Shown in pieces: positions 962 to 55,758 of a stretch of 64,000 bases of DNA. The stretch is from Lepiota brunneoincarnata (Eukaryota; Basidiomycota; Agaricomycetes; Agaricales; Agaricaceae). The stretch covers positions 1-64,000 of the forward strand of contig JAEBUN010000006.1 in the NCBI GenBank assembly GCA_023014365.1, in the 5' to 3' direction. Each line of letters opens with the position of its first letter. Position 1 is the first letter of the stretch. A program made the position numbers and the translations under genes. A model generated the notes under the pieces. That model saw only the letters and a program-made list of their open reading frames with translations. It had not been told where the DNA came from and searched no databases.

Positions 962-2052
962 CTACTTGTCCGTATCGTTCTCAGAGGTACGGGGCGGCGC
1001 TGCTGCGTCCTCCATCATACCTCACACCTCCTCTTCCGAAATGCCCCCAATGCTCTCCGACTCCGACTCCTCCGTCTCCGTAATACCCCTACTTGGCCAA
1101 TCACCATCCACCTGCGCTTCCCAATGCCGCAGCTGTTCGTAGCGGCCAGCCATCAATTCGAACTTATCCACCCTCTCCCCCAACCGAGCGATGGCCTGTT
1201 CGAGCTGCACCTCCATGATATTCACCCGCTTGAGGGTCTTCTGGTGCCCCTCCTCGATGAGTCGCTTCAGCTCTACGTGATCTTTTGGTCAGCAAACCTC
1301 GCAGCCAGAAACCCCTACTCACCTTCAAATTGGTGGTCCAGCATACCTCCGGCCCCACTCGGCTCCGTCTCTTCTTGACCCCTGCATCGTTTCTTCATTT
1401 TGCTACACTGTCGGCAACTCCTAGTGTTGCTGGGACCTTTGTCAGCATTTATCATCGTTGGATTTCTTGTAGTTACTTACCCGCCGGCAATCTCACACTG
1501 GACCTCATCCCGCTGACATCTCCAGCACGGGTTATCGCCCCCGAACACGTGTTTGTTGCCCCGCTGCGGGGCCGCCCTCGCCTTTCCCTTTCCTTTTCCC
1601 CTTCCCTTCGCATCCGAATCTTTGGACTCCTCCTCCTCCTCCTCTTCGTCCCTCGCCACGTCTTTGCCCGTGTAATTTGGGTCGGACTCTTCCTGGTCGA
1701 TTTCCATGGGCTGTTCTGGCAGGTGGCTAGACAAAGCTGTCGTGGTCATCGCAATGAGTCGGGCCCAGATCGCCCAACGTTCGTCCTCGGCAGCTTCCTC
1801 TTGCTGCTGCCTGATCTCTTCCGCCCGTCGCTCCCGAGCCTGCTCCTCCGCTTGCCGCTGACGCAGTTCGATCATACGTCACCGATCTTCCTCTTGACGC
1901 TCTGCCGCCAACTGCCGTTCCTCCTCTCGCCGTTCCTCCTCTTCCAGCCTCTCGATCTCCTTCCGCATCCGCTCCTCCTGCTCCGCCTTTTCCCTCAGTA
2001 ACTGCGCCTTGCGCTCCACCACGGTTGGTTGTCGAGACATTTGACTGCTCAT
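962..2052 (-). pseudogene. Antisense spliced Zn2Cys6 coiled-coil gene of element B (aORF-B), one stop
   Basis: Lies on the strand opposite to pol, between pol and the 3' LTR. An ATG at 2052 (or in-frame at 2040) starts a charged coiled coil, then an acidic stretch, then the half-cluster CWRCQRDEVQC. A GTAAGT...CCAG intron follows, then CRRC-type half-cluster (CRQCSKMKKRC), a GTGAGT...CGTAG intron, a second coiled coil and an acidic tail ending at 962. A TGA at 1879-1881 interrupts the N-terminal coiled coil where the related copy reads CGG/CGA-type Arg; this looks like CpG decay. A TATAAAAAA box about 60 bp upstream of the ATG is conserved with the two other copies. Same gene as the one at 11770, which is intact. 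Confidence 0.8.
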
Positions 2053-9410: not shown

Positions 9411-10974
9411 CGTTCTTGCATGAAGAGGTCTGCCCCTGGGCCTGACCATGTTATGTGGTCATACCTGAATGACATTGTGGCGGACCAAGCATCCTGCCGC
9501 ATATTCATCAATCTCACCAATGCCTGCCTGATAGCAGGGCATTGGCCGGATTACTTCAAAGAGTCTAACTCGGTGGTCATACCTAAACTGGGGAAGCCCT
9601 CTTACTCTACACCCAAGGCCTTTAGGCCGATTGTGTTGTTGAACATGCTGGGTAAGCTTGTGGAGAAGATGATCTCCAACCGCCTCCAATTTGACTGCGT
9701 CAAGTGGGGGGTGTTTCATCCCAACCAGGTTGGTGGAATTCACCAGAAGTCCACTGATGATGCCGGGTTGATCCTCACCCATCTCATTTGTGTGGGGTGG
9801 GCTCGGGGGCTGCAAACAAGTGTTGTCACTTTTGACATTGCTCAGTTCTTCCCTTTGCTGAATCATGATATGATTCCGACAGTTCTATCACGGTCAGGGT
9901 TCGCGCAAGAGTTGGTGTGATTCTTTGGCTCTTACCTGGTCAGGAGGTCTACTACTTACTTGTGGAACTCCTTCCAGTCAGACCCCAGGCAGGCGGATGT
10001 GGGCATGGGGCAGGGCTCGGCTCTGTCCCTGGTCTTGTTGGCCTTGTATCTCGCCCCTCTGGTTTATCTTTACTACCAGAGAACCCCTGGTCTCAGCGTT
10101 GACATGCTCTCGTATGTCAATGACAGGACCCTTATAGTTCAGACCAAGACTTGGGAGGACAATGTATCTGCCCTGCAGGCGGCTTACCGCTGCGTGCATG
10201 GGCTCTTTGACTCTTTCAGCCTCACACTTGAGCATACCAAGTCAGAGGTCTTCCACTTCTCTCAGAATCTGAGGGATGCCAACCCGCCCATTGACCTGGG
10301 CTTCCACCCATACATGGGGGATACCCCTCTGAAGCCCAAGCTGTTTTGGCAGTACTTGGGTTTCTATTTCGACCGTGCTCTCACTTTTTGCGAGCATGTA
10401 CATTACTATTCTACCAAGGCGTTCTCCATGGTTGGTGTGATGGGGATGCTTGGCAATTCAACCCGGGGGCTGCTTCCTGACCAGAAGCGCCTCCTCTACC
10501 TGTCCTGCATGGTGCCTATAGCCACGTACGGATTCCGTATGTGGTATCATGAGGATTTCCGTAATAAGGGGATCCTCAAGATGTTCAACTCCATGCAGCG
10601 GCGCGCTGCTAACTGGATCATCGGTGCATTCCGCACATCCCCCTCCAGGGGGACAGAGGCTCTCGCAGGCCTTCTGCCCTTCTGGTTGCATCTCAAGAAG
10701 CTGGCCTCCCAAACAATATTCTGGGTTACCACACTTGCGGCGAATCACCCACTTCAGCCCTTGCTGGGCCACAAGTTCAGGGGGAGCACTACAGCGCACC
10801 CTCACTCTATTTCTTCTCTCACCCCGGCGCTTCAGCCCAAGGTGAAGAGTGGTCTCATGGAGGTACAGGATGTACTTCTGCAGCTCACTGAGTCATTCAG
10901 CCTGTTTGCGGACGAGAACAGGCCAGGTCTCCGACTTTTGGACCGCTTTTTGGAGTGGATCAAGTTCATGCTTT
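9411..10974 (+). pseudogene. L2 ORF2 part 1: reverse transcriptase and connection region (dead)
   Basis: RT motifs are visible: VVIPKLGKPSYSTPKAFRPI, motif A SVVTFDIAQFFPLLNH, motif B GQGSALSLVLLALYL and motif C MLSYVNDR, where YVDD has become YVND. A TGA at 9918-9920 splits the frame; 9960-10974 is open and continues into the RNase H-like region. The frame is cut at 10974 by element A and resumes at 18824. The first Asp of the catalytic pair is lost, so this copy cannot reverse-transcribe. Confidence 0.9.
10970..10974 (+). repeat. 5 bp TSD of element A (GCTTT), left
   Basis: GCTTT before the LTR and again at 18819-18823 after the other LTR. The L2 reading frame (FLEWIKFML) rejoins TVDPEG when the element and one copy are removed. 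The minus-strand paralogue at 24050-23900 confirms this (FLEQIKFMLNTVDPEG). Confidence 0.95.
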
Positions 10975-11635
10975 TGTTAGAGCCGGTGCGGGTCGGAACC
11001 GAAGCGGAGGGTCGGGGTGGTATCCTTGGTATAAGGTAACCGGGGGACGGGACGACGTCAGTACGTAGACGGCGGGACCAAGGTGGAGTACTTCGGGCGG
11101 AGAGTGGACTTGCGGCCTCAGCTTATGTGCTGTGCCCTCCTACTGTCCGAGTCCGTATTTCAGGAAGTCGGGGCCGAAGCGGAGTGAGGCAGAGAGAGAG
11201 GAGGATAGGGAACAAGGGACTGGTCCGCTGCTCGATTCGATTATCAGACTGAGGAGTACAAGCCAAGTGCCTACGGTATATATACTACTAGCTCGACGAA
11301 TGATGACTCGTACTGACTACGTGCGGAGCGAAGCGGAGACCCATATGGTTACAAGCGGATTACGAATAATTTCGAATGGAATGGAGACCGGTACGGGTAT
11401 GGAGACTGGTAACGTATTCTGATTACGGACGGAGAATGGAGAACTGGACAATGGGAGCACCGAGGGTCAGGTGGTCATGGCACGTGTAGAGGTAGGTCGC
11501 GTGATCGGGGCGAAGGGTTGCGGTCGGAGCCAGTCGGGGCCGAGTCGGAGGGCATAGGGTTGTCGTGTGGAGCACACGTGGAGTCGAGAAGCCGAAGCCT
11601 AATGGTTAAGCTCTAGGTTTGGTGTGGATATGACA
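10975..11635 (-). repeat. 3' LTR of element A (661 bp)
   Basis: TG...CA ends (plus strand TGTTAGAGCC ... GGATATGACA). Differs from its partner at 18158-18818 by five substitutions seen by eye, all at CpG dinucleotides (CG in one LTR, TG or CA in the other). Confidence 0.95.
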
Positions 11636-11655
11636 GTGCCCCCCCTTTAGGGCCG
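11636..11655 (-). other. Polypurine tract of element A
   Basis: On the minus strand CCCTAAAGGGGGGGCAC directly precedes the LTR. It lies inside the intergenic promoter region of the antisense gene, so the plus-strand primer and the aORF promoter share about 130 bp. Confidence 0.7.
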
Positions 11656-11708
11656 AGCCTCGAGGCCCAAGGCGGTCTAGACCGGGGCCCACCGGAAAAT
11701 TCCACGAG

Positions 11709-11720
11709 GGTATAAAAAAA
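11709..11720 (+). promoter_or_regulatory. TATA box of the antisense gene aORF-A
   Basis: GGGTATAAAAAAAG about 55 bp upstream of the ATG at 11770. The equivalents GGGTATAAAAAAC (copy B, minus strand) and GGGTATAAAAACGG (A2, 34324-34336) are at the same distance. Conservation in all three copies supports a dedicated RNA polymerase II promoter. Confidence 0.7.
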
Positions 11721-11769
11721 GGGTGAACTGATTCGAATTTGAGAGGACACAACTTGACCTCCTACCCCC

Positions 11770-12855
11770 ATGAGCAGACAACCATCCCGTCAACCGACCG
11801 CTACGGAGCGCAAGGCGCGATTACTGAGAGAGAAGGCGGAGCGAGAGGAACGAGAGCGGCTCGAAATCGAGAGGCTAGAAGAAGAGGAACGGCGAGAGGA
11901 GGAGGAGCGGCGGCTGGCAATAGAACGCCAAGAGGAGGAGCGACGGCGGCTCATAGAGCTGCGCCAGCGACAAGCGGAAGAGCGCGCGAAGGAGCGATAT
12001 GCGGAGGAGATCAGGAGGCAGCAAGAGGAAACCGCCGAGGCAGAGCGTTGGGCGATTTGGGCCCGACTCATTGCGACGACCACAGGGGCCTCGTCGAGCC
12101 GTCTGTCGGAAGACCCGATGCAAGTAGATACGGAGGAGTCGGATTCCGAATATACGGATAGGGATGAGGCGAGGGACGAGGAGGAAGAGGGGGAGGAGGA
12201 CTCCGGGGATTCAGGGGGTAAGGGTAAGGGGAAGGCAAAGGCGAGGGCGGCCCCGCGATGGGGCCATGCGCACGTATTCGGGGGCGAGAATCCCTGCTGG
12301 AGGTGCCAGCGAGACGGGGCCCCATGTGAGGTGGCCGGCGGGTAAGTCATTTTGGAGGATTTCTGGACTACATACTGATAGTTTCTTAGTAACACCAGGA
12401 GTTGCCGTCGGTGCAGCAAAATGAAAAAACGGTGCGGGGGTCAAGAGGAGATGGAGCCGAGCGGGGCCGGTGGTTTGTCGGGCCAGCAATTCGAAGGTGA
12501 GTAAGGAATCCTGTATTATGATGGATGCCAATTGATGGACCTTGTAGAGTTGAAACGGCTCATCGAAGAAAGGCACCAGGAGACCGTCAAGAAAATCTAC
12601 ACCCTGGAGGTGCGAATTGAGCGGTCCATCGCTCGGTTGGGGGAAAAGGTCGACAAGATGGGGTCGCTTGCTGGCCGCTACGAGCAACTACGGCGTTGGG
12701 AGGCTCAGGTGGACGGAAATTGGTCGAGTGGAAATTTTTCGGAGACGGAGGGTTCGGAGGGGAGTGTCGGGCCCGCTTCGGAGGAGGAGGTGCAGGATTT
12801 GATGGAAGAAGTGAATGGGTCGCCCGGGCTCTCTGGAGACGACACCGATAGGTAG
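11770..12855 (+). CDS. aORF-A: spliced antisense Zn(II)2Cys6 coiled-coil protein of a Ty3/gypsy element
   Basis: Three exons: 11770-12341, 12390-12496 and 12548-12855. Introns of 48 and 51 bp have GTAAGT/TTAG and GTGAGT/GTAG ends. The joined frame codes 328 residues. Residues 1-105 are a highly charged Arg/Glu coiled coil (REKAEREERERLEIER). About 118-165 are Asp/Glu/Ser-rich, followed by a Gly/Lys stretch. Cys176, 179, 186, 196, 199 and 206 give C-x2-C-x6-C-x9-C-x2-C-x6-C, the fungal binuclear zinc cluster, with basic residues SKMKKRC in the second half. A second coiled coil (LEVRIERSIARLGEKVDKM) and an acidic tail follow. The first intron falls between the two halves of the cluster. The zinc-cluster family is known for DNA-binding transcription factors; that this protein binds DNA, perhaps its own LTR, is inference. 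I do not recognise a named gene. Confidence 0.87.
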
Positions 12856-12930
12856 TTGTACGGGGTTGTTTTTTTTTTTTTGGTTTGTTTAATACATGGT
12901 TGTTTCTTGGTGCGATGTGTGGTCAGTAAC

Positions 12931-15900
12931 TCAAAGTGAGTGAAGAGGACCAGGCTTTGCAGGGTAAGAGGAATGAAAAGCCTCTACGAGATCTATAGCA
13001 TGTTCAAGCTCGGTGGCTGGCAACCACGAGGACTCTTCTTCAGTGTCTTCGTAACCTAACCAGATGACTTTATAGAGGAGCTTGCACGCGCGGCGCCGAT
13101 CGATCTTAGAGTCGACGATGCGGGCAATCTCGTATTCTGGTTCACCGTCAATGGAAACCGGCGCGGGCGGCGGATCCGATCGGGCGGGTATGGTGTTAGG
13201 TGTGGCTGGTTCGAGCATGGAAACATGGAAGACTGGGTGTACTCCACGCATGGAGTCGGGAAGTCGGAGTGTAAGGGAGTGAGTACCTGCTTGTGCAATG
13301 ATCTCATAAGGCCCAAGGTACTTTTCGGAGAGTTTTTTGGAGGGACGGGTGGTGCAGAAGAATTGGGCTTTCACGAATACCTTTTGTCCAACCTTGAAGT
13401 CCAGGGCGGGGAGTCGGCGGGCGTCGGCGGAGGTCTGATAACGTTGCTGGGCTAGCGCTATTTCGGACTTCAGGGTGGTATGTAGGTCGTCGAGATCAAC
13501 AGCAAAATGGCGGGCCCGGGCGGAGGCAAGATCGCGTTCAGGATGAACTGTGATGTTCGGATGGTATCCTTTATTAGCAAAGAATGGGGAGATACCGGTG
13601 GTGGCACTAGGAGCGTTGTTGTAAGCAAACTCAGCTAGGGGTAGTAATTCGGACCAATTGTCCTGTTGGTAGTTACAATAGACCCGAAGGTATTGTTCGA
13701 GGGTCTGGTTGGTGTGTTCCGTTTGTCCGTCGCCTTCTGGATGGTAGCCCGAGGTGAAATGTAGCTTCATGTCAAGGGCTTGTCCCAATGAGCGGAAGAA
13801 GTGGGAGACGAATTCGGAGCCGCGGTCGGAGGTAACATGTTCGGGTACGCCGTGCTTGGAGAAGACGTGGAGGACGAATAGGCGGGCGAGGTCGGAGGAG
13901 GTGACGGTATCATAAGTCGGGATGAAGAGGGATTGCTTGGTGAGTCTGTCAACGATTACCAGGATGGCGTCATAGCCGGAGGAGGCGGGAAGTTTTTCGA
14001 TGAAGTCCATGGAGATTGAATTCCAAGGGCGTTCGGGGATGGGGAGTTGCTTAAGGAGACCGTAGGGGCAATGGCGCTGGGGTTTAGACCTCATACAGGT
14101 GACGCAAGACTTACAGAAATCCTTGACAAAGGTGCGGACGCTAGGCCAGGTGTATTCGCGCCGGATGAGTTCCAGCGTTTTATTCTGACCGAAGTGGCCG
14201 GCTAGGACGTGATCATGCTTGTACTGGAGGACCCGAAGTCGGAGATTGTCGGTGTCAGGGACGTAGATTCTGTCGTCTAAGAGGAGGAAACCTTTATCAT
14301 TAACTGACCAACGGCCTTCTGGGCTGGCAAGATGGGCGGAAGCGGTCGGATCCGCTGGTAGGGCGGCGAGGATATCGCGGTGTAGCTGATCGAGGTCCAT
14401 GACTACAGCTGCGCGAAGGGAAGGGGCGTAAAGAGTGGTGGCACGGACGGAGGCCGCGAGCTGTTCGTGAGTGAACACAGGCCGGAAGTTGTGCGGGTTG
14501 ACTGATGCATAGTCGCTATTCCCCCCTTTAGGGTAGACATCCCATCGTCTAGTTAGGGCGTCAGGCTTGGTGCCGAGGCGGCCGGGTCGGAAACGGATGA
14601 CGAGGTGGAATTGGGATAGGAACTCGGACCAACGAGCTTGGCGGCGAGTCAGGATCTTGGTGGTGCAGAAGTATTCGAGGTTCTTGTGGTCAGTGACCAC
14701 ATCAATAGCAAGGGGGGCACCTTCGAGATAGTGCCGCCAGATGCGAAAGGCTTCGAATATCGCCAGGAGTTCCTTGTCGTGAGTGTCATAGTTGAGTTCG
14801 GCCGTGTTAAAGGTGCGGGAATGGAATGCAACGGGATGGACCTCCCCATCGTCGGTGACGATAGAGAGGATTGCCGCAAGGGCGTAGTCGGAGGCGTCGG
14901 TCTCGACAATGATCTGAGCGTCGGGGACCCAAGGAGTGAGGACGGGGGCGGAGATAAATGCTTCCTTCAGGGAGTTAAAGGCCTCGCGACAATCATCAGT
15001 AAAATTCCACTTCACGTCTTTGCGGGTGAGGCGAGTGAGCGGAACGACGATGTCGGAGTATCCGTGAATGAAGCGACAGTAGAAATTGGCGAAGCCTAGG
15101 AAGGACTGGATGTCCTTGACTTTCTTAGGCTCAGGCCACTCCTGGATGGTCTTGACCTTAGATTGGTCCATTCGGAGGCCGTCGGGGGAGAGAATGTAGC
15201 CGAGATATTCCACTGTGTCAGAGTGGAACTGGCATTTGTCAGGGCGGGCGTATAGACCGTGTTGGCGGAGCCGCTTGAGGACCTCCTTGACTTGGTCACG
15301 ATGGATACTATGGTTGTCGGAGTATATCAGAATGTCGTCAAGGTAGATAGTAACGCAGACGTCGAGCATGTCCTTGAATATATCGTTCATGAACCGCTGG
15401 AAGGTGGCGGGGGCATTGGTGAGGCCGAAAGGCATAACCATCCATTCGAAGGAGCCGTAGCGGGTCCGAAAGGCGGTCTTCCATTCGTCGCCGTCAGCAA
15501 TGCGGACAAGATGGTAGGCGTGGCGGAGGTCGATCTTGGTATATACGCGAGCTTTGCGAGGGGAGTCTAAGAGGTCGGAGATGAGCGGAAGGGGATAGCG
15601 GTCCTTCTTGGTGATACGGTTGAGACCTCTAAAATCAACGCATAAGCGGAGGGAGCCGTCCTTTTTCTTGACGAAGAGGACCGGGGCTCCATGAGGGGAA
15701 GTGGAGGGGCGGATGAAACCAATAGATAAATGTTCGTCAATAAAATCACGTAGAGCTCCAAGCTCCGATTGTGAAAGGGAGTAAATGGTACCGACTGGAG
15801 GCTGACCGCCATCCTCTAGGTTAATCTGGAGGTCGTAAGGGCGGTGTGGAGCAAGTGTGTCAGCACGCGATTTACTGAAAACGTCAGCGAACTCGTGGTA

Positions 15901-16737
15901 TTCCTCGGGGATAGACGAGAGGTCAGGCGGTTCCTCGGAGACAGAAGAGGACGCGGCCGATGCGGAGGCGGCGGAAAGATTTATTCGGAATTGTTGGGAG
16001 CCAGGGAGCTTGGCAGCGCGGATAAAGGCAGGAGCGTTTATCAAGGAGATGTGCGGTTTCGCAAGGGGGACAGATTGGGACGAGGTCCCGGACAGGGGTG
16101 GTGAACCTAGGTCAGGAGAGTCAGGGGCGGCCATAGGCGGAGCCGATGCGGGTGCGACGCAGGTAGAGACGGAAGCAGGATTCTCGAGTAGGGATGGCCG
16201 GAAAGTAATACTGCCCAAAGCCCAGTCAATCAACGGATTGTAGCGGGTGAGCCAGTTGTGTCCTAAGACCACAGAACAGGAAGAGTCGAGCCGGGTGACA
16301 TAAGTGTCCAAAATGATAGATTCACCGGAGGGGAAAGATACAGGCAGTTGCGCAAGCTCCGTAATGTAGGCATTTGAGGTCCCATCAAATAACCGAAGTT
16401 CAATAGCCGGAATGGACGCGGTTGGAATACTATGAGAACGAACAAAAGATGAGTCCACAAAACAGTGAGTAGAACCACTATCAACAAGGGCTTTGAAAGG
16501 AGAAAGAGAAGAGAAGTCAGAACTAACTACATTGTCCGTTGTAGAAAGCGGGTCTGAAGCGGAGAGTACGGAAGCGGAGACAGAAGATACAGAAGTAATT
16601 AAAGGAGAAGTTAATGTGATATGAAAGGAGTTCGGGTCGGAAAGAGCGGACGCATTGAGACGGAAACTCTCTGGAGCACAGCAGAGTTCAATGCAATCCT
16701 CAGTCTGTGCAGAGGCCTGAGGACCGCCGACTATTTT
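12931..16737 (-). CDS. Pol polyprotein of element A (PR-RT-RH-IN-chromodomain), intact
   Basis: About 1,268 residues open without a stop when read from the -1 shift point at the gag stop. Protease DSGST is at about residue 86. RT has YLDD (465-468), RNase H TDAS (about 613-616), and the integrase zinc site HDH...CKSC-VTC. The integrase core is D911 (SMDF), D971 (TSDRGSEF) and E1007 (GQTEHT), a DD35E spacing. A GPY/F module (LGPYEI) and a C-terminal chromodomain (YKVIWLGYEDTEEESSW) follow. There is no own ATG at the frame start; Pol is probably made as a Gag-Pol fusion. All catalytic residues are present. Confidence 0.95.
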   Translation of the reverse strand, partial: KIVGGPQASAQTEDCIELCCAPESFRLNASALSDPNSFHITLTSPLITSVSSVSASVLSASDPLSTTDNVVSSDFSSLSPFKALVDSGSTHCFVDSSFVRSHSIPTASIPAIELRLFDGTSNAYITELAQLPVSFPSGESIILDTYVTRLDSSCSVVLGHNWLTRYNPLIDWALGSITFRPSLLENPASVSTCVAPASAPPMAAPDSPDLGSPPLSGTSSQSVPLAKPHISLINAPAFIRAAKLPGSQQFRINLSAASASAASSSVSEEPPDLSSIPEEYHEFADVFSKSRADTLAPHRPYDLQINLEDGGQPPVGTIYSLSQSELGALRDFIDEHLSIGFIRPSTSPHGAPVLFVKKKDGSLRLCVDFRGLNRITKKDRYPLPLISDLLDSPRKARVYTKIDLRHAYHLVRIADGDEWKTAFRTRYGSFEWMVMPFGLTNAPATFQRFMNDIFKDMLDVCVTIYLDDILIYSDNHSIHRDQVKEVLKRLRQHGLYARPDKCQFHSDTVEYLGYILSPDGLRMDQSKVKTIQEWPEPKKVKDIQSFLGFANFYCRFIHGYSDIVVPLTRLTRKDVKWNFTDDCREAFNSLKEAFISAPVLTPWVPDAQIIVETDASDYALAAILSIVTDDGEVHPVAFHSRTFNTAELNYDTHDKELLAIFEAFRIWRHYLEGAPLAIDVVTDHKNLEYFCTTKILTRRQARWSEFLSQFHLVIRFRPGRLGTKPDALTRRWDVYPKGGNSDYASVNPHNFRPVFTHEQLAASVRATTLYAPSLRAAVVMDLDQLHRDILAALPADPTASAHLASPEGRWSVNDKGFLLLDDRIYVPDTDNLRLRVLQYKHDHVLAGHFGQNKTLELIRREYTWPSVRTFVKDFCKSCVTCMRSKPQRHCPYGLLKQLPIPERPWNSISMDFIEKLPASSGYDAILVIVDRLTKQSLFIPTYDTVTSSDLARLFVLHVFSKHGVPEHVTSDRGSEFVSHFFRSLGQALDMKLHFTSGYHPEGDGQTEHTNQTLEQYLRVYCNYQQDNWSELLPLAEFAYNNAPSATTGISPFFANKGYHPNITVHPERDLASARARHFAVDLDDLHTTLKSEIALAQQRYQTSADARRLPALDFKVGQKVFVKAQFFCTTRPSKKLSEKYLGPYEIIAQAGTHSLTLRLPDSMRGVHPVFHVSMLEPATPNTIPARSDPPPAPVSIDGEPEYEIARIVDSKIDRRRACKLLYKVIWLGYEDTEEESSWLPATELEHAIDLVEAFHSSYPAKPGPLHSL

Positions 16738-16740
16738 TCC
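16731..16740 (-). promoter_or_regulatory. Candidate -1 frameshift site between gag and pol
   Basis: The gag frame ends TCG GAA AAA TAG; a -1 slip on the A5 run reads GGA AAA ATA and enters pol. The string GGAAAAATAG is identical in A2 (39303-39312). It is not a perfect X-XXY-YYZ heptamer, so the mechanism is inference from frame geometry and conservation. Confidence 0.45.
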
Positions 16741-18104
16741 GAGCTCGGGAGAGCCGGCGCGTCTGTCTCGGGGAGCTGAGCCTGTCGGCCTTTAGCCTTG
16801 GCATCAGGGAATTTTTTCTTGTCGCAGTTAGCAGCCCTGTGATTGGGATCTGCGCAGACAAGGCAGAGGTTATTGTCGAAACGTCGTTGACGTTCCTCGG
16901 GGGTTAATTTACCGTCCTTACCAAGTTTACTAGTAAGGTCGGATTTGGGCGGGGCCGATTTCTGACCGGCGGACAGGTTGGGCGGATTGCCCTTGTTATT
17001 ATTGGCAGGCTTGGCGGCAGGTTGCGGGTTGGTCGAGGTGGAAGGGGATGGGTTACCTCCAGGTTTCCTAGAGGTGGTCGGGTCCGAAGCGGCTTTGGCG
17101 CGGGCCTTCTCACGTTGGCGTTCCCAGTAGCGAGCGTCGATCTTCATCGCTGCTGCTCGCATTTCGATGAAGGTGTCGGGCTTGCCGTCGGGCCGATTGG
17201 ACAGAATGTCCTGGATGCGGTCGGGGAGGCCTTTATAGTAGCGGTGACAGAATACTTTGTCACCCCAGCGGAGTTGGCCAGCTAGACGGAGGAAATCGAC
17301 GTTGTAGACGGCGATCTTCTCGTCGTAGCGCATTCGGAGGGAGTCGAGCTGCTCAGCAGCTTCTCCGGTCGGATCCGCGGGACCGAAATTGGTCTGCAGT
17401 TCCAGGGTGAACTGGTCCCAGTCCTCGATCCAGTCGTGTATTATTCCGTGGTTGTCGGCCTCGTCGAGGCCGATTTCGAAGTGTTGCTGTGCCACGCCTG
17501 TGAGGTATGTCAACGCGAAGTTGACCTTGGTGGTGGGGATAGCGAACTGGGCCGGGTTAGTACGGAAATAGAGCCGACATTGGAAGAGGAAGGGTTTGAG
17601 TTTGGCGGGGTCGGAACCTGTAAAGATGTCAGGTTCGCGAGCTTTGGTACGGGGAGATCGAGGAGGCTGTGGGGCTTGAGAGTTCCCACGGCCGTCCATT
17701 TGGTCGGCTATGCGTTGGAAAACTCGGAGTATGAGTCTATCATGGTCGTCTCGGGTGTTGCCAGGTGGGATGTTGTTGTTGTTGTCGCCGTTGTCTGATG
17801 GTTCGTCGTCGCCCGGGGGCCCGTCCCCATTGTCAGGGTAGTCGTCGGGATCACCAGGTTCGCTGGGATCAGGATTGGGGTCGGGGCCGTCGTCGGGGCC
17901 GTCGGGAGTCCGGAATACTGAAGGTTGTATATCTTCAGAGAAACGGTCTGGGGTCGAGGGTGCGATCGATTGTTGGTGAGAGCGAGAAGCCCTCGGGGAG
18001 TCGGGTTGCAGTTCCTCGGAAGGAGGTTGTCGAGTGATGCGTTTGCTACGGCGAGCGGCTGGAGTTACCAGAGTGCGAGTACGGGTAACTGTTCGAGAGA
18101 CCAT
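16731..18104 (-). CDS. Gag of element A, 457 aa with CCHC zinc knuckle
   Basis: ATG at 18104, about 50 bp after the primer site. The N-terminus is basic/Ser-rich, then comes a Pro/Asp/Gly-rich linker (PDGPDDGPDPNPDPSEPG). The retrotransposon capsid region follows (KPFLFQCRLYFRTNP ... YLTGVAQQHFE ... NFGPADP ... YKGLPDRIQDIL). Near the C-terminus CLVCADPNHRAANC (414-427) is a C-x2-C-x4-H-x4-C knuckle for RNA binding. It stops at TAG 16733-16731, where the pol frame begins at -1. No interruption is visible, unlike the A2 copy. Confidence 0.94.
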   Translation of the reverse strand: MVSRTVTRTRTLVTPAARRSKRITRQPPSEELQPDSPRASRSHQQSIAPSTPDRFSEDIQPSVFRTPDGPDDGPDPNPDPSEPGDPDDYPDNGDGPPGDDEPSDNGDNNNNIPPGNTRDDHDRLILRVFQRIADQMDGRGNSQAPQPPRSPRTKAREPDIFTGSDPAKLKPFLFQCRLYFRTNPAQFAIPTTKVNFALTYLTGVAQQHFEIGLDEADNHGIIHDWIEDWDQFTLELQTNFGPADPTGEAAEQLDSLRMRYDEKIAVYNVDFLRLAGQLRWGDKVFCHRYYKGLPDRIQDILSNRPDGKPDTFIEMRAAAMKIDARYWERQREKARAKAASDPTTSRKPGGNPSPSTSTNPQPAAKPANNNKGNPPNLSAGQKSAPPKSDLTSKLGKDGKLTPEERQRRFDNNLCLVCADPNHRAANCDKKKFPDAKAKGRQAQLPETDAPALPSSEK

Positions 18105-18144
18105 GGTTAGAAAAATTCAGAGTGTGGTGGACAGGAGGAGTTTG

Positions 18145-18155
18145 AGTCTGATAAT
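18145..18155 (-). promoter_or_regulatory. Self-type primer-binding site of element A
   Basis: Two bases inside the 5' LTR, the minus strand reads ATTATCAGACT. This is the exact reverse complement of AGTCTGATAAT at 18433-18423 in the LTR, 34 nt downstream of a TATATATA box (18467-18460), where transcription should start. No tRNA-like TGG primer site is seen. Tf1 primes itself with an 11-nt RNA 5' end in this way. Confidence 0.8.
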
Positions 18156-18157
18156 AC

Positions 18158-18818
18158 TGTTAGAGCCGGTGCGGGTCGGAACCGAAGCGGAGGGTCGGGG
18201 TGGTATCCTTGGTATAAGGTAACCGGGGGACGGGACGACGTCAGTACGTAGACGGCGGGACCGAGGCGGAGTACTTCGGGCGGAGAGTGGACTTGCGGCC
18301 TCAGCTTATGTGCTGTGCCCTCCTACTGTCCAAGTCCGTATTTCAGGAAGTCGGGGCCGAAGCGGAGCGAGGCAGAGAGAGAGGAGGATAGGGAACAAGG
18401 GACTGGTCCGCTGCTCGATTCGATTATCAGACTGAGGAGTACAAGCCAAGTGCCTACGGTATATATACTACTAGCTCGACGAATGATGACTCGTACTGAC
18501 TACGTGCGGAGCGAAGCGGAGACCCATATGGTTACAAGCGGATTACGAATAATTTCGAATGGAATGGAGACCGGTACGGGTATGGAGACTGGTAACGTAT
18601 TCTGATTACGGACGGAGAATGGAGAACTGGACAATGGGAGCACCGAGGGTCAGGTGGTCGTGGCACGTGTAGAGGTAGGTCGCGTGATCGGGGCGAAGGG
18701 TTGCGGTCGGAGCCAGTCGGGGCCGAGTCGGAGGGCATAGGGTTGTCGTGTGGAGCACACGTGGAGTCGAGAAGCCGAAGCCTAATGGTTAAGCTCTAGG
18801 TTTGGTGTGGATATGACA
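18158..18818 (-). repeat. 5' LTR of element A (661 bp), promoter
   Basis: Partner of 10975-11635. In element orientation it contains TATATATA (18467-18460) and the predicted RNA start at 18433. Followed on the plus strand by the TSD GCTTT. Confidence 0.95.
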
Positions 18819-19785
18819 GCTTTACACCGTTGATCCAGAGGGGGATTCAAAGCAACGGCATCTCAACAGACTGCACGCCTCCATCCGGAGGGCACAGGCC
18901 AACCCGTCGTCTACTTGCATAGCGGCTGGTGCTCACCAGCTGCCATGTGGGAGACTGCAGGCTGTTTCAGTGGCTTGCGTGTTTGCAGGCGGGCACTTGG
19001 TCAAGCAGGCCAGGCAAGCTGCAGGGAGGGTTCTGCTCGCTGATGCGGAGCTCCACTCCATTTGACTGGGAGTAGGCATGGTCTTGGATCGTGCTGAAAC
19101 TAATCACATCTTTGTATACACCAGCTCCACGGGCTCCACCCGCAGAGCTGTTGATCCTTCTGTGCACGCAGGCCAGGCTCATTCCCTGGTGGTGTGCTGA
19201 TCTCTGGATTGCTGGCTGTCTGCCAAGGCCCAGTGGACCGTCACTTTCTGGCAGGTGCCCTCGGGCTCTGTTGCAGAGCTTCACTCTGACGCTGTTGCAA
19301 TGGTGAAGGAACTCCGTGTATCGTTGGGTGCTCGCCTGGCGACTACCATTGACTCCCTCCATGCTGAGGTCACGAGGGGGTGCATTGACAAGTGGGTGAA
19401 TATGTTTCACTTGCCCTTGTATCGGGGCAGGAATTTCCTCCCCCTGTTGGACTCCTTTGGGAGGCCTCTCCAACCCTCATACCTTTCCAGAGGTACTTGG
19501 CTCCGGGAAATCAGTCCTTGGATGTCTGTCGCTGGCACAGCGCAGGCAGCCTGCACTATACTCAGTCACACCCCCATAGGGGAGTACTGCACTAGATTCC
19601 ACCCCCAGGAGGATCACTCCTGTCCTTGTGGGTTGTGGCTTCAGACCTGCACTCACATCCTCACCTCCTGTCTGGAGTATACGCGGCGTGGCAGCTTACC
19701 CCGCAACCTCGACGCCCTTCTAGGCTTTCTGGAATGCAATCCCTGCGCATTTGCATTCCTATCCCAGCCCCAAGGGGTGGGATAA
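18819..19785 (+). pseudogene. L2 ORF2 part 2: RNase H-like region and C-terminal Cys/His motif
   Basis: Reads on from element A in the L2 frame: ACTVDPEG-type start, HASIRRAQA, ETNHIFVYTSSTGS, then PSGSVAELHSDAVAMVKEL, an RNase H-like fold. The C-terminus has DHSCPCGLWLQTCTHILTSC, a Cys/His cluster found in fungal LINE ORF2 ends. Stops and frame breaks occur (for example near 19065 and 19200). The last open piece is 19255-19785. The paralogue L3 (23013-24584, minus) supports the alignment. Confidence 0.85.
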
Positions 19786-20236
19786 CTGGGGAGGGCCTTC
19801 AGGTTATTCCCCCCTTGTGGGCTTCGGCCTCGAGGAGCCGATGGTTATTCGCCCCCTGCCCTTGGGCAGGGTGTAGCGATTTATGGAGAATTGACTCCTA
19901 ACGCCCCATAGGGGCGGAGACCCAAAGCTCTTAGAGCCTTGGCCTGCAGGGTGCAGGGATTTACAGAGAACTGACTCCTAACACCCCTAGGGGCGGGGAC
20001 CTGTTGGCCCTATCCACCCCTCATCTTTCGCACCCTGGTTTTCATCGGGGTAGCGAGCTCTTCGCCCATGTGCACTTCTTCACAGAGTGTAGCCTTTCGA
20101 GTCAGCAGGACTCTCTTCCCTACCTTTATTGGTAGTTATACCATGTATTAGTTGCCTTGTACGTAGCTAGTGCATGCAGACTGCGTTCAAGCACTGCATT
20201 ATAAATTGTTGATCAAAAAAAAAAAAAAAAAAAAAA
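19786..20236 (+). other. L2 3' UTR and poly(A)
   Basis: Non-coding, with two similar segments containing GACTCCTAACGCCCC/GACTCCTAACACCCC, then the block shared with L0 (TTGCCTTGTACGTAGCTAGTGCA) and the terminal TTATAAATTGTTGATC plus poly(A). Confidence 0.85.
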
Positions 20237-22930: not shown

Positions 22931-24584
22931 GAGGGGGGAATAACCTGAAGGCCCTCCCCAGTTATCCCACTCCCTCAGGGGGGTGGGATTGGAACAAAAA
23001 TGCAGAAGGGTTTCATTCTAGAAAGCCCAGAAGGGCATCAAGGGTGCAGGGTAAGCCACCATGCCACATGTACTTTGGGCAGGAAGTGAGTATGTGAGTG
23101 CAGGTTTCAAGCTGCAACCCACAGGGACAGGAGTGGTCCTCCTGGGGGTAGAATCTAGTATGGTACTCCCCTATAGGGGCATGACCAAGTATAGTGTGGG
23201 CTGCCCATGCTGTGCCAGCAACAGACATCCAAGGGCTGATTTCTCAGAGTCATGTACCTCTGGAGAGGTACGAGGGTTGTAGAGGCTTCCTAAGGGAGTC
23301 CAGCAGGGGGAGGAAATTCCTGCCCCTATACAAGGGTGAGCAAAACATATCCACCCACTCGTCAATGCACCCCCTTGTGACCTCAGCCCTGAGGGAGTCA
23401 ATGGTGGTCACCAGGTGAGCACCTAGTGAGATGTGTAGTTCCTTTGCCATTGCAACAGTGTCAGAGTGAAGTTCTGCAACAGAGCCTGAGGGCACCTGCC
23501 AGAAGGTAACAGTTTGCTGTGCCTTAGCAGACAATCGGTGGTTCAAAGATTGGCACACCTCCAGGGAGTGGGCCTGGCCAGCATGAATAGAGGGATCCAC
23601 AGCTCTACAGGCAGAGCCCATGGAGCTTGTATAGATAAAGATGTGGTTGGTTTCAACATGGTCCAAGACCATGCCTACTCCCAACCGAATGGAGTGGGGC
23701 TCCACATCAGTGAGCAGAACTTTCCCCATGGCCTGCTTGACCAAGTGCCCACCTGCAAACATGCAAGCCACTGAGATGGCCTGCAGCCTCCCACACAGCA
23801 GCCGGTGGGCACCAGCTGCTATGCAAGCTGACAGGGAGTCAGCCTGTGCTCTCTGAATGGAGGCGTGCAGCCTGTCAAGATGCCATTGCTTCAAATTCCC
23901 TTCTGGATCAACAGTGTTGAGCATAAATTTGATCTGCTCCAAAAAGTGGTCCAAAAGATGGAGACCTAGCCTGTTCTTGTCTGCAAATGGGCTGAACAGC
24001 TCAGTAAGCTGCGGAAGCACATTCTGTACCTCCATAAGAGCACTCTTCACCTTGGGCTAAAGCACAAGGGTGAGAGACAAGATAGACCGAGGGTGCTCTG
24101 GAGAGGTCCTCCTAAACTCATGGCCCAGCAAGGGCCAAAGCAGATGATTTGCTGCAAGAGTGGTGACCCGGAATATTGTTTGGGAAGCCAGCTTCTTGAG
24201 ATGCAACCAGAAGGGCAGAAGGCCCACAAGGGCTTCTGCCCCCCTGGAGGGAGATGTGTGAAATGCACTAATGATCCAGTTAGCAGCGCACCACTGCATG
24301 GAGTTGAACATCTTGAGGATTCCCTTGTTACAGAAACCCTCATGATACCACATGCGGAACCCATATGTGGCTATAGGAACCACACAGGACTGGTAAAGGA
24401 GGCGCTTCTGGTCAGGAAGCAGCCCCCAGGTTGAATCACCAAACATCCCCATCGCACCAACTGTGGAGAAGGCCTTGGTAGAATAGTAGCAGACATACTC
24501 ATGAAAAGTGAGAGCACAGTCAAAATAGAAACCCAAGTACTGCCAGAATGGCTTGGGCCTCAAAGGAGTATCTCCTGTATCCAT
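22931..24584 (-). pseudogene. LINE L3 (L2-type) ORF2 C-terminal fragment
   Basis: 5'-truncated LINE on the minus strand, starting GDTPLRPKPFWQYLGFYFD and running through the connection, RNase H-like and Cys/His regions (HSCPCGLQLETCTHILTSC). Open pieces: 24057-24584, 23250-24050 and 23013-23228, separated by a stop and a frameshift. Closely follows L2, with CpG sites largely replaced by TpG/CpA. The end at 22931 is cut in the 3' UTR (GGTTATTCCCCCCTC) where the L1 poly(A) begins. The 5' end lies in the pol of element E. Confidence 0.85.
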
Positions 24585-34381: not shown

Positions 34382-35449
34382 ATGAGCAGACAACCCTCCT
34401 GACAACTGACTGCCACGGAGCGCAAGGCGCAATTGTTGAGGGAGAAGGCGGAGCGAGAGGAGTGAGAGTGGCTGGAAATCAAGAGGCTGGAGGAGGAGGA
34501 GCAACGAGAGGAGGAGGAGCGGCAGCAGATGATAGCGCTGCGCCAGTGACAAGTGGAGGAGCGGGTGAGAGAGCGTATGGCAGAAGATATCAGGCGGCAA
34601 CAAGATGAGGCTGCCGAGGCAGAGCGTCAGGCAATTAGGGCCCAACTCATCACAACGACTACGGGGGCCTCGTCGAGCCGTCCGTCGGAAGAACCGATGC
34701 AGGTAGATACGGAGGAGTCAGATTCCGAATACACGGATAGGGACGAGGTGAGAGATGAGGAGGAGGAGGAGGAGGAGGCCTCCGGGGATTCAGGGGATAA
34801 GGGTAAGGGGAAGGCAAAGGCGAGGGCAGCCCCGCAACGGGGCCATGCGAACGTATTCAGGGGCGAGAACCCCTGCTGGAGGTGCCAGCGAGACAAGGTC
34901 CTGTGTGAGGTCGCCAGCGGGTAAGTCATTTTGAGGGTTTCCAGGCGACATACTGATAGTTTTTTTAGTAACACCAGGAGTTGCCGTCGGTGCAGCAAAA
35001 TGAAAAAACGGTGTGGGGGTCAAGAGGAGACGGAGCCGAGCGGGGCCGGGGGGATGTCAGGCCAACAATTTGAAGGTGAGTGAGGAGTTTCTGACTGCGA
35101 GGTTTGCTGACCAAATGATCCTGTAGAGCTGAAGCGACTTATCAAGGAGGGGCACCAGAAGACCCTCAAGCGGGTCAATATCATGGAGGTGTGGCTTGCA
35201 CAGGCCATCACTCGATTGGGGGAGAGGGTGGACAAGGTCAAGCTGACGGCTGGCCGCTATGAACAGTTGCGGCGTTGGGAGGCGCAGGTGGATGGTAACT
35301 GGTCGAGTAGGGGTATTACGGAGATGGAGGAGTTGGAGGAGTCAGAGGAGTCAGAGAGCATTGGAGGCATTTCGGAAGAGGAGGTGCGAGGTATGATGGA
35401 GGATGCGGCAGTGCCACCCCGCACCTCTGGGAACGACACGGACAGGTAG
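34382..35449 (+). pseudogene. aORF-A2: broken antisense Zn2Cys6 gene
   Basis: Same three-exon layout as 11770-12855, with the ATG at 34382 and a TATAAAAAC box at 34326. A TGA appears after six codons (CGT to TGA) and further stops occur in the coiled coil (near 34463 and 34548). The zinc cluster is still readable: CWRCQRDKVLC before the GTAAGT intron and CRRCSKMKKRC after it. Exon 3 is open to 35449 (MEVWLAQAITRLGERVDKV). Retention of both splice sites and all six Cys despite decay suggests past constraint. Confidence 0.8.
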
Positions 35450-44388: not shown

Positions 44389-45994
44389 CAGTGACCCACA
44401 AAACCGTTCCAATGTTTTGTACTTTTAACTTAAAGTAGTAATAGCTCAGTAAATAAAATAGCTAAATTTGTGAATATATTTATAAACATAGCCAAATATG
44501 TCATATCTGACCCTGCAAAGTCGCGTTATGTAATACTTCTAAATGAGGCAATTATGAATTTTGTAAGCATTTTAAGTCATTGGAACAGTTTTGTCAATGG
44601 TAATTTTTAATACTAATCCAAGCAATCACATGGCTCTGTTGATTGTCAATCAACAAGATCATGTGACCATGTGTCTTTGACATATAAATAGATGTGCTGA
44701 CAGCCATGTCCCATCATTCTCAACCCCCTTACCTACCATGAAGCCATTATCTTCTACTCTAAAGCAAACCATCCTCTCTTTGCTAAATTCTCATCATTCC
44801 TATACTAAAATTGAGGCAATTACTGGTGTTGGGCGCAGTACCATATCCAGGCTAGCCTCTAAAAATTGTTCCAGCCTTACCAAATCACTTGGAGGACATC
44901 CTTTAAAACTCTCTACTACCAATATCCAGCATACTATGTATCTTATCTCTGCTGGCAAGGCTGAAACTGCTGTAGATATAGCCAAATCTCTTGCTCCCAT
45001 CATTGGGACATCAGTCTCTTCACAGAATGTAGCAAGGCATCTCAAACAGGCAGGAATGAAGGCTGTAGTCAAGCAAAAAAAGCCTTTACTCTCTGACAAG
45101 CATAGGAGGGCTAGGCTGAATTTTGCTCTGACACACCAGCATTAGACTGTGGAGGACTGGAAGCTGGTTGTATGGTCTGATGAGACCAAAATTAATCGTT
45201 TGGGGTCAGATGGGAGGAAGTGGGGATGGAAAAAGAAGGGAGAGGGGCTTAGTGAAAGATTGGTCAAGGGAACTCTGAAGTATGGAGGAGGATCAGTGAT
45301 GGTTTGGGGCTGTATGCTGTGGGATGGCCCAGGCTATGCAGTGAGGATTGATGGAAGGATGGATGCAGAGTTGTTTGTGCAAATTTTGGAGGAAGATTTG
45401 AAGAAGAGTCTCCGGTGGTACAAGCTTAAACCCCGAGATATTATCTTTCAGCAAGATAATGACCCCAAACACAAGAGTACACTGGCCAAAGAATGGTTTC
45501 AAAAAAACCATTTTAGGCTCCTAACCTGGCCAGCACAGTCACCTGACCTCAATCCCATTGAACACTTATGGGAATATGTGAAGAGAAAGTTGGGAGAGTA
45601 TGAATCTCCTCCCAAGGGTATGGAGGAGTTGTGGCAGAGGGTAGAAAAGGAGTGGGATGCTATTCCAGCTTCTGAGTGTCAGAAGTTAATTGAAAGTATG
45701 CCTAGAAGAGTAGCAGCTGTACTCAAAGCCAGGGGGGGCTACTCTAAGTACTAGAAATAATAGGATAGCCTAGTATAATATGTCATTGACAAAACCGTTC
45801 CAATGACTTAAAATGATTACAAAATTCATAATTGCCTAATTTGGAAGTATTACATGACGCAACTTTGCAGAGTCAGATATGACATATTTGGCTATGTTTA
45901 TAAATATATTCACAAATTTAGCTATTTTATTTACTGAGCTATTACTACTTTAAGTCAAAAGTACAAAACATTGGAACGGTTTTGTGGGTCACTG
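44389..45994 (+). mobile_element. Tc1/mariner transposon (1,606 bp) with 211 bp TIRs and TA TSD
   Basis: CAGTGACCCACAAAACCG at 44389 mirrors CGGTTTTGTGGGTCACTG ending at 45994, flanked by TA on both sides (44387-44388 and 45995-45996). The inverted repeats extend to about 44599 and from 45784, some 211 bp, unusually long for the group. Internal ends repeat the CATTG-ACAAAAC-GTTCC motif, giving two motif copies per TIR. One transposase gene lies inside. Confidence 0.95.
44738..45754 (+). pseudogene. Tc1-family DD34E transposase, one in-frame stop
   Basis: ATG at 44738. The N-terminus has paired helix-turn-helix signals (TKIEAITGVGRSTISRLASK, then IGTSVSSQNVARHLKQAG). TAG at 45143-45145 (after LTHQH) interrupts the frame, which otherwise runs 338 residues to 45754. 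Catalytic triad: VVWSDETK, IFQQDNDPKH and NPIEHLWEY, with 34 residues between the second Asp and the Glu. A single-base change separates it from an intact gene, so decay is recent. The TIRs appear suitable for mobilisation by a related transposase. Confidence 0.94.
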
Positions 45995-54615: not shown

Positions 54616-55758
54616 GTGTTGGACTACCTGGTCTGTGTGCATGCCTCTATGTACTTAAATAGTGCAGGTGTCAATTGTGATCGACACCTGAATATCAACT
54701 TGGTTCTGGTGCACCTACTTTCCTCTAACAATTGCCCAGATGTTATTGACTGCAATGTAACAAACCTGGAGCCATTGAAGAAGATCATGTCAAAATCCAA
54801 ACCCAGTCCCAAGCATTTCACCAAGCCTGCAACTATCGTTGATAACCAAGGAAATATATTAGTATGGTATTTACCCAACCTCTTGCCCCAGAATCATCAG
54901 GTATAACATTCATTGTACAACTATTATGAAGTGTAGCTTATAGTATTGAAACAGGATAATCTCCTCAGGGCAACAGAATTTATTCAACCTCAACTCAAGT
55001 GGTGTTCAGGCCAGGCTCAGACTTGGAGAAATGACCCTGCATCATTTCTCCAAGTCCCAGGTCAGAAGATGACTAGAGGTGTCCTGAACTTCTCACCAGG
55101 TTGGATTCTTGCTGGACATGTGGTGTGTATCCTCTCATTACTGATACTACATACCCAACTCATGCTCTACACTTATTACCAGAATAGTTCCAAGGCAAGA
55201 CTGGTAACCTCTAGTACATTAAAAAAAAACACCAGTAGCAAGGAGTGGCTCAAGATGATTCAACCTTCAACTGAGCTTCTCAACAAGGCACTTGTGCTCA
55301 CACACCCCACTCTCTACAAATCAGGTCAAGCATCCTTGTCAAAACTGCATGTGTTACCTGAAACAAAGGAGTATGCCAATGAGTGGCATTCCTGCTTCTC
55401 AGAGATAACAGTAATCCTTAACAGCATCACTGAAAGCCATAAGGATAGGGGAGCACACTGGACATGTTATGACCTCCTAGTAAGCCTTGGGACCCATGGT
55501 GATGACACTCATTTGTCACTACTGGAGTTAAAGATAACACTTTTGTACCCCTCTGGTACTGGTGTTTTCCTATGTGGATGTTTGCTAAAACATGGGGTTG
55601 GGTGTTGGGAACATGGGGACAGGGTGGTATATGCCTTCTACATGAAAGAGGTGATATACAAGAAGTTAGGTGTGGAAATTCCTGGCTGGTCAAAGCAGTC
55701 AGACTTTGTTGAGAAAATGGAGTTGTGGGAGGTTGGTGGAATGCTTGTATGTAGATGA
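54616..55758 (+). CDS. TET/JBP-type 2-oxoglutarate/Fe(II) dioxygenase, N-terminally incomplete
   Basis: Exon 1 (to 54900, ...LPQNHQ) joins exon 2 at 54955 (DNLLRATEFIQPQLKW) over a GTATAA...AAACAG intron; no clear start codon is seen for exon 1, so the N-terminus may be missing. A further in-frame 60-bp intron is possible at 55123-55182. The catalytic core reads ITESHKDRGAHWTCYDLLVS, where HKD (55438-55446) is the HxD iron site. The distal His is in LLKHGV (55591) and the 2-oxoglutarate Arg in GDRVVYAFYM (55621). The spacing and the LLYPSGTGVFLCG strand fit the fungal TET/JBP group, which oxidises 5-methylcytosine or thymine in DNA and is expanded in basidiomycetes, often near KDZ transposons. 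No KDZ transposase is seen here. Activity is inferred. Confidence 0.72.

Follow-up and report, generated by a model that had tools for sequence, protein, structure and literature searches.

A Ty3/gypsy chromovirus family of Lepiota brunneoincarnata carries an antisense gene of its own between pol and the 3' LTR, preceded by a promoter-like leader, and the predicted product has a zinc-cluster-like six-Cys domain followed by a helix that may be able to dimerize. We analyzed this gene in a window of 64,000 nucleotides (contig JAEBUN010000006.1 of assembly GCA_023014365.1, positions 1 to 64,000 of the forward strand), the whole stretch of DNA to which the coordinates below refer, and searched for its relatives in the 55.6-Mb genome, which comprises 95 contigs and in which the window lies within contig C58.

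Host element and gene structure

The gene resides in a complete chromovirus on the minus strand (10975 to 18818; copy A, also L001), recognized from its LTRs and from domain profiles. The 3' LTR (10975 to 11635) and the 5' LTR (18158 to 18818), each of 661 bp and on the same strand, show 5 differences over 662 aligned bases, have TG...CA ends, and are flanked by the target-site duplication GCTTT (10970 to 10974 on the left and 18819 to 18823 on the right). A polypurine tract adjoins the 3' LTR at 11639 to 11648 (minus strand, the sense of the element). Profile searches placed gag at 16731 to 18116 and pol at 12931 to 16791, both on the minus strand, with pol encoding protease, reverse transcriptase, RNase H, integrase, SH3_Tf2-1, and a C-terminal chromodomain; both this gene content and the termini are those of a Ty3/gypsy chromovirus. 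The insertion splits a LINE-like element, the flanks of which (9901 to 10972 and 18824 to 19815) match adjoining parts of a copy near 23920. Elsewhere in the window lie a DDE_3 transposase piece (45146 to 45754) and a Tet_JBP dioxygenase domain (54937 to 55758; E 1.1e-11); domains of the latter type are reported near fungal DNA transposons (PMC12730594).

On the plus strand, splice enumeration joined three exons between 11770 and 12855 into a frame of 328 residues, which is the longest splice choice, the alternatives yielding frames of 250 to 325 residues. Exon 1 (11770 to 12341) encodes a charged N-terminal helix, an acidic linker, and the first half of the six-Cys motif; exon 2 (12390 to 12496) encodes the second half (CRRCSKMKKRC); and exon 3 (12548 to 12855) encodes a heptad-pattern helix (about 12553 to 12729) and an acidic tail, ending in the stop codon. 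The exons are separated by a 48-nt intron 1 (12342 to 12389) and a 51-nt intron 2 (12497 to 12547), both with GT...AG ends, and intron 1 splits the motif, which spans 12295 to 12435. As the initial annotation had stated, the gene lies inside the LTRs on the strand opposite to gag-pol. Placed in the interval from pol to the 3' LTR, it is arranged tail-to-tail with pol, the two stop codons being 75 bp apart. Of eight copies inspected, five (L012, L016, L025, L045, and L057) have AATAAA or AATAATA after the stop, and neither was seen there in A, L002, and L032. The introns would persist because the genomic RNA that is reverse transcribed runs in the other sense.

Copies in the genome

With the window copies A, B, and A2 as DNA queries, the antisense gene was matched at no fewer than 120 distinct places in the genome, two of which are pieces of one copy. 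Family copies are thus numerous beyond the window, in agreement with the earlier proposal that the gene is part of the element and not a capture by a single copy. The same gene had also been ascribed to copy B (962 to 2052, minus strand; L009) and copy A2 (34382 to 35449, plus strand; L039); DNA search and alignment bear out their homology, but early stops cut the joined frames to 57 and 6 residues, respectively.

In an alignment of 68 loci (A plus L002 to L068), the GT-AG ends of intron 1 are preserved in 67 (L059 has AT) and those of intron 2 in all 68, which upholds the three-exon, 328-residue structure first described. An intact joined frame, 315 residues or longer, is present in 22 loci, and the 46 loci without one include five clearly partial matches (L026 to L028, L067, and L068). 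All six Cys are retained in every one of the 22 intact copies. The exon-2 pattern occurs at 105 places in the genome versus none for a reversed control. In two members of subfamily C (L029 to L038), namely L031 and L036, intron 2 is identical to that of A and intron 1 resembles that of L025. Judging from these two, the subfamily appears to combine two subfamilies in a mosaic, the switch being inside the antisense gene, such as template switching might produce.

Selection on the coding frame

Between A and seven representatives of other subfamilies, dN/dS is 0.13 to 0.24 (dS, 0.49 to 1.04), and it is 0.08 to 0.39 across all 28 pairs of the eight representatives and 0.04 to 0.16 for the zinc part alone in comparisons of A with the seven, values obtained from intact copies alone, which depresses the ratio somewhat. 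The ratios for A are well below 1, the neighborhood that the initial annotation had taken to speak against its reading. Control frames on the same alignments gave ratios above 1, save one reverse frame at 0.20 to 0.36, which is still above the true frame and is probably low because it shares third positions with it. The exons of A differ from those of L014, L031, and L045 at 15 to 25% of bases, and one or both introns differ at 40 to 52%. The exceptions are the second introns of A and L031, which are identical, and the first introns of A and L045, which differ by 11%, such that one intron can equal or exceed the exons in similarity when A is compared with its mosaic or nearer relatives. Across five representatives, 26 of the 31 positions of residues 173 to 203 are invariant, a larger share than in the N helix (63 of 84), the C helix (38 of 60), or the tail (18 of 42). 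Pol is more constrained (dN/dS 0.04 to 0.09 for A versus other subfamilies, with L057 left out as a frame-shifted fragment).

These substitution patterns indicate that purifying selection acts on the protein encoded by the antisense gene. There is next to no chance that the gene consists of fortuitous open frames or of a one-copy capture, an explanation refuted by the at least 120 matched places, the conserved splice sites, and the purifying selection; by the sequence evidence, chance frames in particular are ruled out through splice-site conservation, dN/dS, and the exon-2 pattern count. An explanation in which the antisense RNA, rather than a protein, is the functional product, acting by transcription interference or as double-stranded RNA, would draw on the promoter-like leader and on the tail-to-tail arrangement with pol. 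We nevertheless consider it very improbable, as dN/dS, Cys retention, and intron divergence all point to selection on the protein, and an RNA-only function is disfavored by dN/dS in its own right.

Six-Cys motif and predicted helices

From the N to the C terminus, the protein of A comprises a helix (residues 11 to 104), an acidic linker, the six-Cys motif (176 to 206), a short linker, a helix of about 60 residues, and an acidic tail. Its sole cysteines are residues 176, 179, 186, 196, 199, and 206, and the arrangement C-x2-C-x6-C-x9-C-x2-C-x6-C that had been read from the window recurs in 22 of 22 intact copies. Zinc clusters have the spacing C-x2-C-x6-C-x5..12-C-x2-C-x6..8-C, and the motif lies within that Zn(II)2Cys6 range in all 22. 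The Zn_clus profile (PF00172) scored 14.7 bits on the whole protein, under the curated cutoff of 21, and 18.4 bits on a 117-aa piece; on 57-aa pieces of three subfamilies it scored 21.2, 14.4, and 19.3 bits, one of them barely above the cutoff. No other profile, TRP28 and bZIP included, matched the whole protein at E values up to 1, and an NCBIfam search returned no match. The 117-aa piece gave 31 weak matches in a PDB search (best E, 0.14), mostly to coiled coils, the lowest ranked being two zinc-cluster entries (E 5.9 and 9.4), and PDB searches with each motif half found no zinc cluster. Because the six Cys are at the right spacing, the domain is likely a zinc cluster; the initial assignment to the fungal zinc-cluster domain agrees with the Cys spacing, but the whole-protein score does not establish membership in PF00172.

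The order of the two motif halves may be swapped. When halves were compared with Zn_clus, the N-half of A alone matched (15.9), and neither the C-half nor the N-half of B gave a match when searched alone. The N-half was the best-matched stretch of the 57-aa motif, aligning to profile positions 15 to 31 or 16 to 32, i.e., to the second half of the profile; a second matching stretch was counted besides. We also built half-motif models from 14 first and 21 second halves, of which leave-one-out placement misassigned 1 of 35; LEU3 and PPR1 were left out of the second set, their flanking residues being incomplete, and intron-split host clusters contributed second halves only. The first-minus-second scores of the N-half were -14.3 for A, -4.5 for L057, -2.0 for A2, and +5.0 for B, and that of the C-half was +4.5 bits, supporting a swapped order in A, opposing it in B, and weak for A2, L057, and the C-half. 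The comparison is suggestive of a circular permutation in A and not in B.

Of the coiled coils initially described on both sides of the motif, only the C-terminal one has a heptad basis. AlphaFold2, run on a single sequence, predicted residues 11 to 104 as one long helix, but this E/R-rich segment has no heptad pattern (1433 of 2000 shuffles as good) and thus amounts to a charged single helix, not to a clear coiled coil. The C-terminal helix, predicted in the same way, occupies residues 2 to 60 of a 101-aa piece (ten-residue means of 86 to 98 over the first 60). Its heptad pattern is modest (68 of 2000 shuffles score as well), and it may dimerize the protein.

Leader and candidate binding site

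The LTR and the ATG are separated by 134 bp, which hold the polypurine tract, a CGG-N6-CCG sequence, and a TATA-like box. The box, TATAAAAA (11711 to 11720, plus strand), lies outside the LTR, 59 bp before the ATG, and was present in 16 of the 17 loci inspected among 65 aligned; L014 lacks both it and most of the leader. The CGG-N6-CCG (11673 to 11684, plus strand), a candidate dimer site with the spacing of Ppr1, precedes the box by 26 bp. An exact match occurs in 19 of the 22 intact copies and in 20 of the 43 others, and all 65 fit, with a variable spacer, once CpG transitions are allowed; these counts exclude the three of the 68 loci without the gene start. Of 100 inverted triplet pairs, 22 are kept in all four other subfamily representatives, and the leader CGG-N6-CCG is not among them; we regard it as a candidate site whose conservation is not above background.

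The element of A contains CGG-N6-CCG five times, a second one overlapping the leader site at 11683 and none lying within an LTR; other spacings are more common in it (N2, 24 times; N12, 8 times). Considered as a conserved target, the LTR was rejected, with 9 of 38 CGG/CCG triplets versus 15 of 72 other CpG triplets kept in all four other subfamily representatives (p = 0.81). In the leader, the corresponding numbers are 2 of 6 and 4 of 8. The LTR is no obvious target, and the best candidate site is the one in the 134-bp leader.

Distribution among elements and deletion derivatives

A survey of SH3_Tf2-1 domains scored the best 150 of 1045 candidates, other families included. A match to the gene lies on the opposite strand within 3 kb downstream of 99 of these hits and on the same strand in none, and the exon-2 pattern (100 of the 105 places listed) adds 16, for 115 of 150. 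Four further hits share one identical deletion junction in the antisense gene (L095 and L096, on contigs C52 and C69 of G000, together with C25:79751 and C52:28973 of the same genome). In L095 and L096, the deletion preserves the frame, with 71 residues remaining, and removes the zinc domain and helix while sparing the leader and termini. The pol frames beside the four deletion copies measure 1286, 1181, 1286, and 1286 residues. As L095 and L096 agree at 99.2% from the start of the LTR inwards and have dissimilar flanks, they represent separate insertions, and a shared deletion beside long pol frames at no fewer than two sites implies that the protein is not needed in cis. Loss of the zinc domain has not prevented spread, as would be expected whether the protein acts in trans or is dispensable.

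The other 31 hits have no detected gene, and five of them were inspected. Loci L069 to L072, which belong to other chromovirus families and three of which are nearly alike, have no such antisense gene in the stretch inspected, where L069 holds another element; L098 has an apparent DNA transposon, judged by eye. The gene appears to mark one chromovirus family. This restricted distribution counts against an accessory role in the replication cycle (nuclear import or cDNA or RNA binding), as does the Cys spacing, which presumably differs from that of a CCHC knuckle. Nucleic-acid chaperoning would also be consistent with the basic Cys motif and the long helices, and supply in trans would likewise allow deletion copies to move; on balance, we think it quite unlikely that the product is such an accessory protein instead of a transcription regulator.

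Relatives outside the genome

Protein searches with residues 160 to 328 gave no match at E ≤ 1e-3 among 248 candidates, and those with the exon 1 residues 80 to 191 of L002 gave none at E ≤ 1 among 267. The same kind of search with pol residues 600 to 1286 gave 2354 hits among 7993 scored, the best named match being in Leucocoprinus birnbaumii (83% identity over 92%) and others in Trametes and Pisolithus. No relative emerged when viral contigs were scanned with the zinc-helix piece and with two queries from pol. Ty3 pol fragments with 50 to 53% identity occur in bacterial metagenome bins (L073 and L074) and are probably eukaryotic contamination. A literature search over titles and abstract beginnings of open-licence papers found plant antisense ORFs and no fungal zinc-cluster one. 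A term search found neither "antisense" nor "zinc" in "LTR Retrotransposons in Fungi" (PMC3248453), and neither "antisense" nor "zinc cluster" in PMC2864245.

Proposed function

We hypothesize, with somewhat better than even confidence, that the family encodes a nuclear DNA-binding dimer that regulates family copies in trans as an HBZ-like copy-number brake, with a candidate site in the leader. The protein would enter the nucleus, bind DNA as a dimer, and regulate in trans the transcription or silencing of family copies. By acting on its own promoter through the CGG-N6-CCG before the TATA-like box it would be autoregulated, and it could brake copy number in the way of HBZ, the antisense regulator of HTLV-1. 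Deletion copies beside long pol frames are expected if the product acts in trans. A brake and an activator fit the sequence equally, and we favor a brake with leader autoregulation. We give little credence to a version in which a circularly permuted zinc cluster, with the intron at the joint, sets antisense output and copy number via the leader site and the deletion derivatives are cheaters.

The same anatomy, an element-encoded and probably DNA-binding protein, would also fit an anti-silencing factor that binds noncoding DNA of the family, lifts host silencing, and aids amplification, as VANC does. The gene changes faster than pol, and full copies could supply the protein to the deletion copies. 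However, tandem-repeat targets of the kind described for VANC (PMC10398659) were not seen on reading the leader or the LTR, and we hold anti-silencing to be unlikely.

A fungal family with many copies, some of them young and intact, would make the function of element antisense genes testable within a compact genome, and it would offer a recognizable DNA-binding-like domain, a short leader, and naturally occurring deletion derivatives. Such a case would further demonstrate that a regulator with introns, a feature of some retroviruses, can be carried by fungal Ty3 elements.

Comparison with known systems

Like the fungal Zn(II)2Cys6 regulators (PF00172) Gal4, Ppr1, and Leu3, the protein has Cys spacing within the usual range and a downstream helix. 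Unlike them, it scores below the Pfam cutoff, possibly has swapped halves with an intron between them, and is carried by a retroelement.

VANDAL elements are DNA transposons, a kind of host element different from ours. The VANC proteins of the Arabidopsis VANDAL elements are anti-silencing factors whose targets form tandem repeats, of which none was seen on reading the leader or LTR here; they resemble our protein in being element encoded, fast changing, and proposed sequence-specific binders (PMC10398659).

HBZ is spliced and dimerizing, and it starts in the 3' LTR, whereas the TATA-like box of the fungal gene lies outside the LTR. Both genes occupy the antisense strand of an integrated element, but HBZ is a bZIP protein, whereas the fungal protein has a Cys motif, and no sequence relation was seen. 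HBZ is described as a factor from the proviral antisense strand that antagonizes the viral activator Tax (PMC4793531, PMC5797633).

The nearest parallel in layout is that of the antisense ORFs of plant LTR retrotransposons (aORF-3R), exemplified by the Retand ORF with a TRP28 domain (PF04195) and gene23 of Grande (PMC11963269, PMC7264820). Unlike Retand, which is placed in a nonchromovirus lineage, our element has a chromodomain and a fungal host; and unlike the plant ORFs as described, the fungal gene has a six-Cys motif and two introns and does not match TRP28. What the two have in common is antisense orientation, presence in most copies, probable DNA binding, and a position in the interval between pol and the 3' LTR, the aORF-3R layout found at the 115 of 150 scored SH3_Tf2-1 hits.
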